Source of the DNA: Psychrobacillus sp. FSL K6-2836 | GTDB taxonomy: Bacteria > Bacillota > Bacilli > Bacillales_A > Planococcaceae | Length of the DNA stretch: 64,000 nt | Direction of reading: 5' to 3' | NCBI RefSeq assembly: GCF_038003085.1 | Contig: NZ_JBBOOM010000001.1 | Location: 3,844,001 to 3,908,000, forward strand | In this document: piece by piece, positions 22,345-62,747 of the stretch | Position numbering within the stretch: position 1 is the stretch's first letter | Layout: each line of letters begins with the position of its first letter | Notes under the pieces: model-generated | Databases searched by the model: none | What the model was told of the DNA's origin: nothing | What the model saw: the letters and a program-made list of their open reading frames with translations, nothing else | Translations under genes and position numbers: made by a program

Positions 22345-24987
22345 ATGACAAACGAAACAACGATGTCCACAAAGTATGATCCGCAGTCGATTGAAAAGGG
22401 TCGGTATGAATGGTGGCTAGAAGGAAAATACTTCGAAGCTCATCCAGAAAGCGATAAAGAACCTTATACAATCGTAATTCCACCTCCAAATGTAACGGGT
22501 AAACTACATTTAGGTCATGCGTGGGATACTACATTACAAGATATTATTATTCGCATGAAACGTATGCAAGGATATGATGCGTTATGGCTGCCAGGTATGG
22601 ACCATGCAGGTATCGCAACACAAGCAAAAGTAGAGGAAAAACTACGTTCTGAAAACATCACACGATATGATTTAGGTCGCGAAAAATTTGTCGAAGAAAC
22701 ATGGAAGTGGAAAGAAGAATATGCTGGTCATATTCGTGCACAATGGGCAAAACTTGGACTTGGCTTAGATTACTCACGCGAGCGCTTCACTTTAGATGAA
22801 GGATTATCAAATGCAGTTAAGGAAGTATTCGTAAAGCTATACAACAAAGGTTTGATCTACCGTGGCGAATACATTATCAACTGGGATCCAGCAACTAAAA
22901 CAGCTCTTTCAGATATTGAAGTAATTCACAAAGATGTACAGGGTGCATTCTATCATATGCATTACCCACTTGCAGATGGTACTGGTTCTATCGATGTTGC
23001 AACCACAAGACCAGAAACAATGCTGGGTGATACGGCAGTTGCAGTACATCCAGAGGATGATCGTTACAAGCATTTAATCGGAAAAACAGTAAAGCTTCCG
23101 ATTATTGGTCGAGAAATCCCGATTGTTGGTGATGATTACGTAGATATGGAATTTGGAAGTGGAGCAGTTAAAATTACACCGGCACATGACCCAAATGACT
23201 TTGAAATTGGAAACCGTCATAACCTGCAACGTATTCTAGTGATGAATGAAGACGGAACGATGAATAAAAACGCTGCATCCTATGATGGCATGGATCGTTT
23301 TGAATGCCGTAAACAAATCGTAAAAGATTTACAAGATGCAGGTATTCTATTTAAAATTGAAGAGCATATGCATTCTGTAGGGCATTCTGAACGTAGTGGA
23401 GCAGTGGTAGAGCCATATTTGTCTTTACAATGGTTCGTAAAAATGAAGCCACTTGCGGAAGAAACGATAAAACTTCAAGCTACAGAAGAAAAAGTAAACT
23501 TTGTTCCAGATCGTTTTGAAAAACAATATTTACACTGGATGGAAAACATTCATGACTGGTGTATTTCTCGCCAATTATGGTGGGGGCACCGTATTCCTGC
23601 ATGGTATCACAAAGAAACTGGTGAAGTATATGTTGGCCATGAAGCTCCTGCAGATGCGGAAAATTGGAATCAGGATAACGATGTTTTAGATACTTGGTTC
23701 TCCTCTGCACTATGGCCGTTTTCAACACTAGGCTGGCCAGATGCAGAAAACGAAGAGTTTAAAAAATATTATCCAACAAATACACTTGCAACTGGATATG
23801 ATATTTTAACTTTCTGGGTATCTCGCATGATTTTCCAAGGTATTGAGTTTACTGGTACACGTCCATTTAATGATGTATTAATTCACGGTCTTGTTCGTGC
23901 AGAAGATGGAAGTAAAATGTCTAAATCTCTTGGAAACGGGATTGACCCAATGGTTGTAATCGACCAATATGGTGCAGATTCCCTTCGTTACTTCTTGAGT
24001 ACTGGATCATCTCCTGGGCAGGATTTACGCTACTCTACAGAAAAAGTAGAAGCTGTATGGAACTTTGCCAACAAAATTTGGAATGCATCTCGTTTTGCAT
24101 TAATGAACATGGATGGCTTGAAATTTGAAGAGATCAATTTAGATGGTAAAAAATCTGTTGCGGATGCCTGGATTCTTACGCGTTTAAATGAAACGATTGA
24201 GCAAGTAACAAGACTTTCTGAACGCTATGAATTCGGTGAAGTTGGTCGTGCCCTTTATAACTTCATTTGGGATGATTTCTGTGACTGGTATATCGAAATG
24301 GCGAAACTTCCGCTTAACGGGGAAGATGAAGCAGCGAAAAATATGACACGTTCTGTGCTAGCTTATGTTTTAGACAATACTATGCGTCTATTACATCCAT
24401 TTATGCCATTTATCACTGAAGAAATTTGGCAAAACCTTCCGCATGAAGGAGAGTCAATTACAGTGGCTGCTTGGCCGACTGTTAACGAATCCCTTTCCAA
24501 TAAAGAAGAAGCGGACAATATGAAATTACTTTCTGAAATTATCCGTTCCGTACGTAATATTCGTTCGGAAGTACAAACGCCAATGAGCAAGAAAGTTCCA
24601 TTATACGTTTCGGCGAAGGATGCGAATACATTAGCAGTATTAGAAGCAAATGCTAAGTATCTAGAGCGTTTCTGTAATCCAGAACCACTTGTAATTGGTT
24701 TAGATTTAGATGCACCTAGTCAATCAATGTCGGCAGTAGTTACTGGAGCGGTTTTATATCTACCACTACAAGGACTAATTGATATAGAAGCCGAGAAAGC
24801 TCGTTTAACGAAAGAGCTAGAAAAATGGGCTAAGGAAGTAAAACTAGTTCAAGGAAAACTATCCAATGAGCGCTTCGTTTCTAAAGCACCAGAGGCAGTA
24901 GTTGCAGAAGAACGTGCAAAAGAGGCTGACTATCTAGAAAAACACGCATCTGTATTGAAGCGTATGGAAGAATTGAATAATCTATAA
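22345..24987 (+). CDS. valS: Valyl-tRNA synthetase
   Basis: 880 residues, class I aminoacyl-tRNA synthetase. HLGH of the HIGH signature is at 55-58 and KMSKS near residue 525. The editing domain between them contains [15 protein letters not shown], which clears mischarged threonine. The C-terminal coiled-coil tRNA-binding arm (around residues 810-880) ends the protein. ATG 22345 follows TAGGAGGA. Expression is governed by the T-box in front. A terminator lies right after the stop, so valS is not co-transcribed with folC here, unlike the tight arrangement in B. subtilis. Confidence 0.98.
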
Positions 24988-25028: not shown

Positions 25029-25049
25029 ATAGGAGAAGAAGTACTCCAG

Positions 25050-25169
25050 ATTCAAGCGATATTACGTGACATTCGTGTGATTTTTCATTTCATTCAGGTG
25101 ATACTCATTCATATTCTAGTGATTTTTCTCCACATTCAAGTGATTCTCGGAAACATTCGTGTGTTTCCG
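25050..25169. repeat. 21-bp direct-repeat array (array 1, about 6 units)
   Basis: Units start with ATTC at 25050, 25071, 25092, 25113, 25134 and 25155, an exact 21-bp period, the last one partial. A typical unit is ATTCaAGTGATT followed by TTTCTCCAC. The complement reads ATCACTnGAAT, the same core as array 2 at 55263. There is no spacer between units. The array lies between the valS terminator and a bidirectional terminator. The reading frame through it (24990-25199) is only a product of the 21-bp period. Confidence 0.85.
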
Positions 25170-25180
25170 ATTCAAATGCA

Positions 25181-25217
25181 AAAAAGAGAGGACGATTAAA
25201 TCTCGTCGCTCTCTTTT
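25181..25217. terminator. Bidirectional terminator
   Basis: AAAAAGAGAGGACGA pairs with TCGTCGCTCTCTTTTT (one bulged base) and has A/T runs on both sides, so it works on both strands. It overlaps the last codons of the minus-strand ATP-grasp gene and probably terminates that operon. Confidence 0.85.
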
Positions 25218-26008
25218 TTGGTGAGTTTATTATGAATGTATTCCATAATAGGCTTTGCGATATCCTTCTTAGTCGTTTCAAAATATGATCTTGCTCCAAC
25301 GGGATCTTCTATTTCATTGAAAAGCCAGCTCCCATCAGGTAAGAGGAGAAAATCGATGCCAATATAATCACTTTTAAGTGCTTTAGCTATTTTCTCTACA
25401 GCTGCAATTTGCTGTGAGTCTAGCGTGTATTTTTCAACTGTTCCACCTAAAGTGAAGTTGGACTTAAAGCTATCTTTTGGCCCAGTTCTTTTTACAGCTC
25501 CCAGTACTTCCTTACCGAGCATGAATACACGAACATCAGTAGCATTTGTTTCGATATACTGTTGAGCGATAATCGTATTTTCAGAACATGTATTCAAAAA
25601 TGAAGTTGCTTCTTTTTCCGTGTGAACTAATTCGACTTGTTTTCCGCCATGACCGTCAATTGTTTTTAATACGATAGGATATTCGTTTATATCAGAAACT
25701 GTTGTTATTTTTTTAGTTGGAACTGTTGCAATACCGAGAAGCTGTACAAGCTGTATTGCCTTTAATTTGTCATTGGCAACGACATTCACTTCTGCGCGAT
25801 TGAACATTGGTATATTTCTTTGTTCTAATTCCTTTGATAATTGCGGATTTCTTGTGCGGAACACTATAAAATCCGCTTCTGGAATCGGATCCTGATCATC
25901 TACTACAGTTAATGTATGTTCGTGAACACTTGCAGCATTTATTAATCGGTCAATAAAGCTTTGATTGCGCTCTATCTCCGCTTTTTCATATATGAGTAAC
26001 CCTTTCAT
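25196..26008 (-). CDS. RimK-like ATP-grasp protein, second gene of tandem pair
   Basis: 270 residues. ATP-grasp fold: a pre-grasp N-terminal part, the glycine-rich loop TIDGHGGKQVELV near residues 117-129, the QQYIE strand, DVRVFMLG, and the metal-binding C-terminal DFLLLPDGSWLFNEIEDPVGAR. The Asn-Glu-Ile-Glu-Asp form of the last motif fits the RimK/YheCD-type ATP-grasp ligases, which join a carboxylate to an amine through an acylphosphate. No signal peptide. Its ATG overlaps the stop of the upstream ATP-grasp gene by 4 bp, so the two are translationally coupled. Substrate unknown; a peptide or amino-acid ligase is the family expectation. Confidence 0.8.
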   Translation of the reverse strand: MKGLLIYEKAEIERNQSFIDRLINAASVHEHTLTVVDDQDPIPEADFIVFRTRNPQLSKELEQRNIPMFNRAEVNVVANDKLKAIQLVQLLGIATVPTKKITTVSDINEYPIVLKTIDGHGGKQVELVHTEKEATSFLNTCSENTIIAQQYIETNATDVRVFMLGKEVLGAVKRTGPKDSFKSNFTLGGTVEKYTLDSQQIAAVEKIAKALKSDYIGIDFLLLPDGSWLFNEIEDPVGARSYFETTKKDIAKPIMEYIHNKLTKKESDEI

Positions 26009-49277: not shown

Positions 49278-49307
49278 GCTCGGACTTAACAAGTGGAAAA
49301 GTGGGAA

Positions 49308-49391
49308 ATCGATTGATGACAGTGAATAATTGATCAATGACTGCATAGAATCGATCAACACCTATAAAAAGTTGCTCAATAAGTACTGACA
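49308..49391. repeat. 21-bp degenerate direct-repeat array (array 3, 3-4 units)
   Basis: Units of exactly 21 bp start at 49308 (ATCGATTGATGAC), 49329 (ATTGATCAATGAC), 49350 (ATCGATCAACACC) and 49371 (GTTGCTCAATAAG), the fourth degenerate. It lies 31 bp after the minCD terminator and upstream of spoIVFA. Period matches arrays 1 and 2, but the core sequence differs. Confidence 0.6.
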
Positions 49392-49480
49392 CATCAAGCA
49401 GTTTACTCAGAATCTCTTTAAAAAAGGATATATTCATTAAACAACTCCGACCTTCATATATTCTTTTTAGGGGGAATGTT

Positions 49481-54216: not shown

Positions 54217-55095
54217 ATGACAACCAAACAAGTTGCTTTTCTAGGGCCAGAAGCTTCTTTTACACATTTAGCAACGAAGTCATTATTTCAACAAGAGTTG
54301 TTAGTGCCAATTCGTACTATACCTGAATGTATTGAAGCTGTTGCAACGGGAGAAGTAGATGTAGCGGTAGTCCCTTTGGAAAATGCTTTAGAGGGCACAG
54401 TTCCGTTAACGATAGATTATTTATTCCATGAGGCAGAGCTTTACGTTATTGCAGAGCTATTATCTCCAATCGAGCAGCATTTAATGGTCCATCCAAGTAA
54501 TGCGGAGCGATGGGAAGAAATGATAACTGTATACTCCCATCCACATGCTTTGGCGCAATGCCACAAATATTTGTATTACCGATTTGGAAAAGTACCATTA
54601 GAACAATCATCTTCAACCGCAGCAGCAGCGAAATACGTTTCTGAAAACGAAGATTTATGTATCGCCGCGATTGGAAATACTTCAGCCGCATCGGAATATG
54701 GTTTGAAAATTGTTGAACAAAATATACATGATTTTCATTTTAATCATACGCGCTTTTTTGTGATTTCTAAAAAGAATCATTGTATCGAACGAGATGGTCA
54801 TACAGATCAAGTGAAAACAACGGTCATGATCACCTTACCTAAAGACGATCGTTCTGGTGCCTTACATCAGGTGCTTTCTGTATTTGCATGGAGACAGCTC
54901 AATTTAAGTAAAATTGAGTCACGACCATTAAAAACAGGTTTAGGGCAATATTTCTTTATCATGGATGTTCTAGAAGATGAAGAAAAGCCAATGATGATCG
55001 GTGCAATGGAAGAGTTAAAAGCTCTTGGCTGTGGCGTAAAATCATTAGGCTCGTATTATACATACGAAACAAAAAACGAAGCAATCCGATCTTAA
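54217..55095 (+). CDS. pheA: Prephenate dehydratase
   Basis: 292 residues, monofunctional PheA. Catalytic part: FLGPEASFTHLATKSLF at the N-terminus, VVPLENALEGTV, IAAIGNTSAASEYGL and NHTRFFVISKK (the TRF catalytic motif). ACT domain from about residue 200 with SKIESRPLKTGLGQYFFIMD for phenylalanine feedback. Converts prephenate to phenylpyruvate. Its last codons form part of a terminator hairpin. Confidence 0.96.
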   Translation: MTTKQVAFLGPEASFTHLATKSLFQQELLVPIRTIPECIEAVATGEVDVAVVPLENALEGTVPLTIDYLFHEAELYVIAELLSPIEQHLMVHPSNAERWEEMITVYSHPHALAQCHKYLYYRFGKVPLEQSSSTAAAAKYVSENEDLCIAAIGNTSAASEYGLKIVEQNIHDFHFNHTRFFVISKKNHCIERDGHTDQVKTTVMITLPKDDRSGALHQVLSVFAWRQLNLSKIESRPLKTGLGQYFFIMDVLEDEEKPMMIGAMEELKALGCGVKSLGSYYTYETKNEAIRS

Positions 55096-55117
55096 ATGGA
55101 TTCGCTTCGTTTTTTTG
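55074..55117 (+). terminator. Rho-independent terminator overlapping the end of pheA
   Basis: AACGAAGC-AATCC pairs with GGATT-CGCTTCGTT (one bulged base), with a 10-nt loop containing the pheA stop codon, followed by TTTTTTT. Confidence 0.9.
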
Positions 55118-55551
55118 TTAGAGGCAATAAAGTGCCTAAATTTTCAAGAGAGATAAGAATGTAAATGCTTCTTACGACTACCAAACCAGTGTTCCAGGTA
55201 CTTGGAACGATAACCTCTAGAAATAGTAAATATAAGTGGGTTTGGTAAAGCAAAAATGGAGGATCACTCGAATGTAGAGGGAAATCACTCGAATGAAGAA
55301 GAGTATCACCCGAATGTATAAAAGAATCACTCGAATGTAGAAGAAAATCACTTGAATGTAGAAGAAAAACACCAGAATAAACTCAAGAATCACCGGAAAG
55401 TGCTGGCAGGCTATTTATGAAAGGAAAGAATATTAATTAGCGAATTTTTCAATTGTCTATTTGTAGTTAACAATTATTTCACATTTTCCGAAAAGCTTTT
55501 CAAGCCACTTCCAAGAAGTTGTAGAAGATTGACAGAAAGATGCAGACTGAT
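55118..55551. other. Non-coding region between pheA and niaR
   Basis: No gene seen. It holds an 18-bp imperfect palindrome GTTCCAGGT/ACTTGGAAC at 55191-55208, the 21-bp repeat array at 55263-55409, and an AT-rich tail leading to the niaR terminator. It is framed by terminators on both sides and should not be transcribed from flanking genes. Confidence 0.65.
55263..55409. repeat. 21-bp direct-repeat array (array 2, 7 units)
   Basis: Seven contiguous units start at 55263, 55284, 55305, 55326, 55347, 55368 and 55389: exact 21-bp period. Best-conserved core is ATCACTCGAATG followed by nAGAAGAAA; the last two units are more degenerate. No spacers. The same core on the opposite strand makes up array 1 near 25.1 kb. 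Confidence 0.9.
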
Positions 55552-55595
55552 AAAAGAGAGCAGGTTATGATGTCAGTCACAATCTGCTCTTTTAA
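55552..55595 (-). terminator. Terminator for niaR
   Basis: GAGCAG...CTGCTC stem with A-rich and T-rich flanks lies just downstream of the minus-strand niaR. Outer pairing includes a G-U and T-tract is short, so moderately strong. Confidence 0.6.
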
Positions 55596-55617: not shown

Positions 55618-56148
55618 TTATCCTTCCATCAAATAACCTTTTTCTCTAATTGCACTAATACCTCTATTTAAAATTTCTTCGGTTGGCGCGGACAATAAAT
55701 GCAAATGAATTCCAGCAGTAAGCTCCAATAAAAATGGAGCATCCGTATCTCGTACCTTCTTTAAAAACATTTCTACGTCATGTCGATTAGAAACCATGAT
55801 AGAGGAAGTGATTTCTCCGTATACAGGGTGTTCAACGGTAACGTTTTCTACAGTTACCCCAGCATCAACTAAAGTAAAAAGCTCATCCTCTGAATGAATG
55901 GATTGGTGATTGCATGCTACCCGTCGTTGAACATATGGGGTGCTTTCTTTATCAGGCAATACAATATAGCCTTGACTAGTAGACATAATAGGCGCATTCG
56001 TTGCTTTTAATAATGTTATATCATTCACAATCACCTGTCTGCTGACATTGGTGAGCTTTGCTAACTCCGTGCCAGTCACAGGAGTATGCTCTTCCTTTAA
56101 ATAGGAAAAAATCCAATTCCTACGGTCCTCACCTTTTAACTTTTTCAC
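55618..56148 (-). CDS. niaR: Transcriptional repressor NiaR (niacin-responsive)
   Basis: 176 residues. N-terminal winged helix-turn-helix (GTELAKLTNVSRQVIVNDITLLK, residues about 25-47) and C-terminal 3H domain with conserved histidines in CNHQSIHSEDEL, VEHPVYGEI and GIHLHLLSA, which bind metal and nicotinic acid. B. subtilis NiaR (YrxA) represses nad synthesis genes and niacin transport. Unlike B. subtilis, the nadABC-nifS genes are not adjacent here. Single minus-strand gene in an otherwise rightward region. Confidence 0.92.
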   Translation of the reverse strand: MKKLKGEDRRNWIFSYLKEEHTPVTGTELAKLTNVSRQVIVNDITLLKATNAPIMSTSQGYIVLPDKESTPYVQRRVACNHQSIHSEDELFTLVDAGVTVENVTVEHPVYGEITSSIMVSNRHDVEMFLKKVRDTDAPFLLELTAGIHLHLLSAPTEEILNRGISAIREKGYLMEG

Positions 56149-62186: not shown

Positions 62187-62545
62187 GAAATGTGCAAGCG
62201 CCTAAGAAAGCCCCGACAGGCACTGGAAGGGTTTCGCATAAAGGCGTTCCTTGCCTTTATCGAAAACCTGAAGTGACCCGAGGGGCTGGGCGCTGGAACT
62301 AGACAGGTAGAAAAGCGGAATGCGCCGATTAGTTGCGACTAGCGCTGGAAGGCTTGTGAGAAAGGCGCCTTTTGCCTTACTCACAAGCCTGAAGCGACTC
62401 GAGCGACTGGCGCATGAAGACTAGACAGTAGGAAATGTGCAAGCGCCTAAGAAAGCCCCGACAGGCACTGGAAGGGTTTCGCATAAAGGCGTTCCTTGCC
62501 TTTATCGAAAATCTGAAGTGACCCGAGGGGCTGGGCGCTGGAACA
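62187..62545. repeat. Cluster of three long-hairpin intergenic elements
   Basis: Copy A 62187-62299 and copy B 62432-62544 differ at one position in 113 and are 245 bp apart. Each folds into a long interrupted hairpin: GCGCC/GGCGC, GCCCC/GGGGC, CACTggAAGG/CCTgaAGTG and TAAAGGC/GCCTTTA. Between them (about 62312-62425) lies a diverged third member with the same plan (GCTTGTGAG/CTCACAAGC apical arms and GCGCC/GGCGC ends). No protein is encoded; the short frame at 62437 is a by-product. A truncated relative lies at 54148. Confidence 0.85.
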
Positions 62546-62747
62546 AGACTGGGGATGTGATAGCGTCTATGAAATGTTTGCAGTCATGTGAGAATCTAAT
62601 AGGCGCTATAACAAACTGCAAAAATTCGTAGTATGCTAGATAGCTACAAAATTAGTTGTCTTTATTAAAATACATAAGAAAAAGAACTTATTCATTTTAT
62701 ATGAGTAAGTTCTTTTTCTTTGGGCAAGGTAATTATGAGGTGATTAT
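62546..62747. other. Intergenic tail before yrbG with hairpins
   Basis: No gene. It contains TTTGCAGT/ACTGCAAA (62577-62626) enclosing segment GGCGCTATA, which may be a further decayed element, and the terminator at 62676-62722. Confidence 0.5.
62676..62722. terminator. Strong bidirectional hairpin terminator
   Basis: AAGAAAAAGAACTTA (62676-62690) and TAAGTTCTTTTTCTT (62706-62720) pair perfectly over 15 bp with T-runs on either strand. It isolates yajC from yrbG. Confidence 0.85.

Follow-up and report, generated by a model that had tools for sequence, protein, structure and literature searches.

What kind of element is a tandem repeat that keeps its period and a short core, but lets the rest of each unit vary? 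The question is raised by an array of direct repeats (array 2) located between pheA and a niaR-like gene in a stretch of 64,000 nucleotides from the soil bacterium Psychrobacillus sp. FSL K6-2836 (the window, in its full length). The reading that we favor, with a probability of about 0.5, is that array 2 belongs to a numerous group of non-coding arrays made up of putative protein-binding sites.

55263..55409, plus strand: array 2, seven 21-bp units, each with core ATCACYNGAATG and a 9-bp variable spacer (type A), from repeat analysis and lag score.

The steps between the seven units spanning 55263-55409 are exactly 21 bp. The 12-mer ATCACTCGAATG is present without change in three of the seven units and with one mismatch in two, and the final two units are degenerate (AACACCAGAATA and ATCACCGGAAAG). 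Within the pocket between pheA and niaR, the top match at lag 21 reached 53/63, a value not equaled in any of 2000 dinucleotide shuffles (maximum 36), confirming the seven repeats of the original prediction; at lags 12-45 the remaining scores were 20-30 each, except for lag 42 (50). Tandem Repeats Finder reported a period of 21 with 5.2 copies and a score of 143, as well as a period of 63 with a score of 171. Among type A units, conservation is concentrated in the core, with 1.1-2.0 bits in columns 1-5 and 8-11 (values partly inflated by selection), 0.65 bits in column 6, and 0.14 bits in column 7. Seven of the nine spacer columns carry less than 0.6 bits, and the A-rich columns 19 and 21 about 1.0-1.2.

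The same period was detected far beyond array 2. A lag scan independent of any core was performed on 464 kb of the own genome (G000, 4.5 Mb), 400 kb of each of three relatives, 60 kb of G127, and 40 kb of G071, the last two belonging to two further genera, which amounts to 1.764 Mb from six genomes. Genes were called by longest open reading frame (ORF), not by a trained gene finder, and "intergenic" means outside the longest ORFs of at least 120 aa; an N-run of G016 was excluded by script from the pooled lag counts. Intergenic peaks numbered 27 at 21 bp, 16 at 42 bp, 8 at 40 bp, and 0-3 at any other lag from 10 to 59, while in coding regions of the same scan they fell mostly at multiples of 3. 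Several of the lag-40 peaks fall within arrays with 19/21-bp or 20-bp steps, and one, at G000 3548515, is without explanation. The 27 lag-21 peaks correspond to 22 pockets (6 convergent, 13 co-directional, 2 divergent, and 1 unclassed), with 25 peaks coming from the four Psychrobacillus stretches, two from G071, and none from G127. The five lag-21 peaks of G127, including the one in its pheA pocket, all lie beneath called ORFs of 122-315 aa.

A period of 21 bp is also seven codons, and the type A antisense strand can be read as CAT TCN RGT GAT, as would be expected of heptapeptide repeats in short proteins. In addition to the G127 peaks beneath ORFs, an ORF of 50-119 aa covers 15 of the 27 intergenic lag-21 peaks, which is expected given that the period is divisible by 3. 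Nevertheless, no stop-free frame was found for cores A, B, or GGTTGCT; even the best frame was interrupted by stops, 10 across the 132 units of type A, 11 across the 110 of type B, and 20 across the 136 of GGTTGCT. Moreover, long arrays contain steps of 19 and 20 bp, which break the frame: 21 steps of 21 bp and seven of 19 bp in the CACATAA array, 19 of 21 bp and four of 19 bp in the CTTGCRGA array, and 13 of 21 bp, two of 20 bp, and two of 19 bp in the GGGGC-type array, with no step between 22 and 39 bp in these three. In GGTTGCT arrays, 74 steps measure 21 bp and six 20 bp, the remainder being 41, 42, or 63 bp. Coding for heptapeptides was thus rejected for cores A, B, and GGTTGCT, the G127 arrays beneath ORFs excepted, and as a general account it is very improbable.

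Comparison of orthologous pockets revealed that the period is kept where the core is not. The pocket of array 1, the other array of this type in the window, was followed across 19 Psychrobacillus genomes.

25040..25165, minus strand: array 1, six 21-bp units, core type as in array 2.
22345..24987, plus strand: valS, one flank of the array 1 pocket.
25196..26008, minus strand: ATP-grasp (RimK-like) gene, the other flank.

A lag-21 score of at least 34/63 was obtained in this pocket in 13 of the 19 genomes; together with a three-unit array in G006, 14 genomes carry a 21-bp array there, with five different cores, namely A (six genomes), TTNCAACTAAA (four), AACCTTGCGGAGA (two), TATGYGGTATTC (one), and AAGTGTTGCA (one). 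At the pheA pocket, genomes without a core A array include some with other 21-bp arrays, in G016 and G009 (TTGGTTGCTYT, by eye) and in G013 (also by score). In 30 genomes from 18 other genera, not all of which have niaR as the gene following pheA, clear 21-bp arrays were found in three (G127, G071, and G080) and a short one in G147 (by eye). Apparently, these arrays constitute a large, undescribed class in which the 21-bp period is kept in relatives, often at the same place, with differing cores. The original prediction knew of no described element of this form; our searches of open-access full text likewise returned no description of such arrays, although they were narrow and half gave no result at all, which makes them weak evidence of absence.

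Each core has its own distribution. Unambiguous arrays with core A (ATCACNNGAATG) or core B (ATCGGTYGAATA) were found in 7 of the 19 Psychrobacillus genomes; L187 and L199 showed no array under the three-unit rule and were dropped, although a 20-bp step can be seen by eye in L199. A looser search (two units, two mismatches) matched 17 of the 19, many of them no better than the backward control. Windows of three GGTTGCT units (counted with overlap) occur in 8 of the 19 genomes, with 233 in G009, 220 in G013, and none in G000. GCAAGTA windows, counted in the same way, also occur in eight, with 278 in G008 and 118 in G000, where they represent a core different from that of array 2. The backward controls for both gave zero, apart from one match in G006. 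The own genome holds six arrays of the array 2 core type, one of them mixed A/B. The proposal, made from two arrays, of a family that shares its period, core, and setting is supported, and the family is much wider than was visible in the window.

The array 2 core was also sought in wider samples. In a class-level sample, 2 of 398 genomes matched, both within the genus, and in a family-level sample 16 of 261, with one match of the backward control (G187). Among the family matches, those of the seven Psychrobacillus genomes, G126, and G243 were counted as real, and those of G016, G034, G071, G082, G268, G269, and G273 were set aside, their letters looking coding or homogeneous. In genome contigs, the three-unit pattern was found in 28 stretches, 6 of them from Psychrobacillus, and records sharing the core include Psychrobacillus psychrodurans DSM 11713 and Psychrobacillus sp. 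OK028. Thirteen of the 22 non-Psychrobacillus stretches were placed: eight within ORFs of at least 80 aa, three homogeneous and outside such ORFs, and two outside with variable spacers. Most of the non-genus matches can be due to chance, since a perfect 21-bp repeat has to fit the pattern just once. The last two, L084 (Chryseobacterium) and L073 (Paenibacillus), are 20-21 bp arrays with cores ATTCTTGYGAT and TTCTCGCGATT; as they share the same build outside ORFs and were found with the core A pattern, the class may reach other phyla.

An indication of a binding factor comes from how cores and spacers evolve. Arrays persist at orthologous places in several species while their cores change: at locus 258/227 the core is A in G008, mixed in G000, and B in G004 and G006, and at locus 640 it is A in G000 and G008 and B in G004 and G007. 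At two loci where species differ in A versus B, the flanks are colinear with 78-90% identity on both sides, so that the core was switched in place. Spacers drift by point mutation and can be aligned between species. Across 109 aligned orthologous unit pairs, column 7 was the least conserved of all (0.39). In the 16 orthologous pairs, not independent of one another, whose spacers are identical in at least eight of nine positions, columns 4, 6, and 7 were identical in only 0.62, 0.56, and 0.62, and the remaining core columns in 0.81-1.0, spacer conservation not being comparable in this set as the spacer was used for choosing the pairs. The changes are parallel and lineage-specific: the commonest base of column 6 is T in every type A array of G000, G008, and G006 (11 of 11), and C in those of G004, G014, and G007 (10 of 11, with one tie), two stray G010 units being left out. 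This base tracks the genome rather than the locus, at unlinked loci, the pattern that sites of a factor with changed specificity would show.

Variable number tandem repeats and minisatellites are tandem and variable in unit number, and the arrays resemble them in both respects, the pheA pocket holding 7, 6, and 6 units in different species, the array 1 pocket 3-6, and locus 640 either 8 or 19. Ordinary slippage duplication in unconstrained pockets, with no binder, would account for this variation, as well as for the whole-unit likeness or higher-order duplication seen in some arrays (L186, G010, and G009). However, likeness between units is for the most part confined to the core, whereas slippage should keep whole units alike; it would not arrive at a 21-bp unit for different cores at unlinked loci; and it leaves unexplained the parallel changes of the core beside kept spacers. 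We consider this explanation unlikely. Regarding the earlier proposal of a functional or actively spreading family, the constrained core agrees with the former, while the finding of arrays at orthologous places speaks mostly against the latter. One likely case of array copying between neighboring pockets was observed in G007, where two type B arrays in pockets 6 kb apart (L202 and L203) are 85% alike over 103 bp.

Taken together, the two-turn steps, the contrast between a conserved core and a free spacer, and the parallel changes among cores speak for a trans-acting factor that binds the DNA. Each 21-bp unit would provide one recognition core of about 11-12 bp, the other 9-10 bp being mostly free filler. 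As steps of 19-21 bp equal two helical turns, the cores would lie on about one face of the DNA, an arrangement in which copies of a sequence-specific, trans-acting factor encoded at an unlinked place can stack side by side. The specificity of this factor would shift between lineages, with the array cores following. The protein itself, its stacking, and its coevolution with the arrays are what we infer from these patterns. Since the arrays are found mostly where at least one gene ends, the stacked protein might serve as a roadblock, an insulator, or an anchor, a role that we can only guess at.

The setting of array 2 is consistent with a location at gene ends.

54217..55095, plus strand: pheA (prephenate dehydratase, PF00800), the left convergent gene.
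55075..55116, plus strand: pheA terminator-like hairpin (55075-55111) and T-run, read by eye.
55550..55593, minus strand: niaR terminator-like hairpin (55558-55589), flanked on each side by a T-run, read by eye.
55618..56148, minus strand: niaR-like regulator (HTH_11 and 3H), the right convergent gene.

The two genes do converge on array 2, which is opposite in orientation to array 1, as originally described; the terminators said to enclose it were recognized by eye and are missing from the list of a consensus scan that was limited to loops of 3-8. Convergent pockets are expected at 14% by number of intergenic pockets or 19% by intergenic bases (four stretches). Four of the six own-genome arrays with the array 2 core type were convergent (P 0.005-0.014, with small n and a post hoc choice of test). 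The 45 rows for cores A and B in Psychrobacillus comprised 28 convergent, 11 co-directional sense, 4 antisense, and 2 divergent placements, which collapsed to 22 loci in seven genomes (12, 7, 2, and 1, respectively), some of them checked by alignment and the remainder by gene length only. The 34 GGTTGCT placements comprised 16 convergent, 6 sense, 4 antisense, and 1 divergent, in addition to 6 in short ORFs and 1 unclassed. By locus, 13 of 22 classed GGTTGCT loci were convergent (P 1e-6 to 4e-5, best matches only), omitting three in short ORFs and the unclassed one. The anticipated excess at convergent sites was therefore found for core A in the own genome, for A/B, and for GGTTGCT, but was not clear when all cores were pooled (3/20 peaks and 7/36 peaks, both counted after dropping the G016 N-run, and 6/21 classed pockets, against the expected 14-19%). 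A convergent rule for all arrays is unsupported, and the preference belongs to some cores.

Frequent location at convergent sites would also be expected of topological buffers similar to bacterial interspersed mosaic elements (BIMEs), in which gyrase or another general protein relieves supercoils where genes converge. Repetitive extragenic palindromic (REP) elements bind gyrase and occur between convergent genes (PMC1525189). Like REPs and BIMEs, the arrays are extragenic and present in many copies, and those of some cores are often placed between convergent genes. They differ in their strict tandem period of about 21 bp and in spacers that vary within an array. Furthermore, the type A core is non-palindromic, as judged by reading, and array 2, the only array folded, forms no hairpin, its single-strand DNA fold being worse than that of shuffles (z +1.65), which rules out a hairpin element for this array. 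A general enzyme would leave the lineage-specific cores unexplained, and the lack of a clear convergent excess in the pooled data is not in its favor either. A BIME-like role is accordingly improbable.

Sites repeated at the RNA level, for an RNA-binding protein or a small RNA in 3' transcripts, were weighed on the same placements. Most of the arrays that were placed follow the end of a gene, and in Psychrobacillus the strand of A/B arrays leans with co-directional neighbors (11 sense versus 4 antisense rows, about 7 versus 2 by locus). In GGTTGCT arrays, by contrast, the strand is nearly balanced (6 versus 4 placements, 4 versus 4 by locus), array 2 itself lies between the terminator-like hairpins, and a pitch of 19-21 bp has no obvious use in RNA. 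The array 2 pocket gave no Rfam match at gathering score, and two matches below this threshold coincide in part with the terminator region of pheA, so no known RNA family was retained. The probability that we give to an RNA-level element is low.

The unit structure resembles that of iterons, direct repeats of about 17-22 bp, or about two helical turns, with a conserved core and a lineage-specific sequence. The arrays might accordingly be sites of plasmid or phage replication initiators, kept in the chromosome as relics or as decoys titrating the initiator of an invader, and the tandem direct repeats of about 21 bp, the conserved core, and the fast-changing specificity would all agree with this origin. 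In contrast to iterons, they are many per chromosome and located between mostly housekeeping genes. No rep gene was found among the 20 proteins flanking 10 own-genome pockets (one gene on each side), which are mostly housekeeping enzymes and transporters and include valS, HflX, one NERD-domain protein, and the niaR-like regulator. Array 2 was matched by none of 72,556 plasmids and none of 50,697 phages, collections that may hold few elements of this genus, and an array of about 870 bp in the own genome had none in plasmids. In viral contigs, matches were found for core A (2 stretches), TTGGTTGCT (32), AGCAAGTAAA (4), CCACATAAA (5), and TTTAGTTGKAA (3), and none for core B; judged from their letters, with no gene-by-gene test, these matches resemble coding repeats or isolated pairs. 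A plasmid or phage origin was hence rejected for lack of a match in the plasmid and phage collections, and iteron-like sites are in our view a poor candidate. The alternation of constant and variable parts is shared with clustered regularly interspaced short palindromic repeats (CRISPR), in which repeats of more than 20 bp alternate with unique spacers of more than 20 bp. Here the constant part is 12 bp and the variable part 9 bp, the spacers drift and remain alignable between species, and the same 20 flanking proteins include no cas product.

Several points weigh against the interpretation of array 2 as one of many arrays of protein-binding sites. No candidate binding protein was found among those 20 flanking proteins, and the pooled counts show no clear convergent preference. 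Individual cases among the 15 intergenic peaks covered by ORFs of 50-119 aa may be genes. Several different cores coexist in one genome, and reading all of them would take more than one factor, or a single factor of great plasticity. The match between core and clade is loose, GCAAGTA windows numbering four in G014 and two in G004, relatives of G000 and G008, and 21 in the more distant G009. Choosing unit pairs by their spacers biases the column comparison toward the spacer. Finally, a mutational bias at the core (e.g., methylation) could also give parallel changes.

A broader reading, less likely than not, is that members of this bacterial family have a chromosome-wide system of binding arrays phased at 21 bp, with fast-evolving sequence-specific factors and genome-wide coevolution of sites and factor. 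Such a system would be the equivalent, in bacteria, of satellite or insulator arrays that evolve along with the protein binding them. If the site-array interpretation holds, many phased binding sites per chromosome would have been overlooked, because lineages spell them differently, so that a sequence search fails where a period search succeeds. It would also imply a DNA-binding factor whose specificity changes unusually fast, and would offer a natural experiment on a genome retuning all sites of one factor together.

Array 2 had also been described as the longest and best conserved array, which holds in comparison with array 1 only. The array of about 870 bp in the own genome (G000 C1 3493915-3494785; L271:9900-10800) has another core (CCACATAAA), a spacing of 21 bp with recurring 19 bp, and a higher-order repeat, and a relative carries 19 units of the array 2 core type. 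The window contains a third array of this period.

49289..49397 (G000 3893289-3893397), no strand assigned: about four degenerate units of period 21 with another core (approximately AATYGATCAATG), lag-21 score 39/63.

This third array sits between co-directional genes. Elsewhere in the own genome, lag-21 and lag-40 repeats lie beneath a called ORF of 279 aa (G000 C1 3639575-3640415, L278). In G071, two arrays of period 20 were observed at C3 ~1728116 and ~1735826 (L457), with cores TTCGGAGTATGG and TTACAATATGGA, one of them directly adjoining a 21-bp array. Duplication of a whole array was suggested by eye in G010 (L210) and in C36 and C1 of G009, where array and flank appear to be repeated in tandem with a period of about 160-200 bp. 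Lastly, positions 62187-62549 of the window hold a tandem repeat of period 121, with three copies, 68% matches, and a score of 413.
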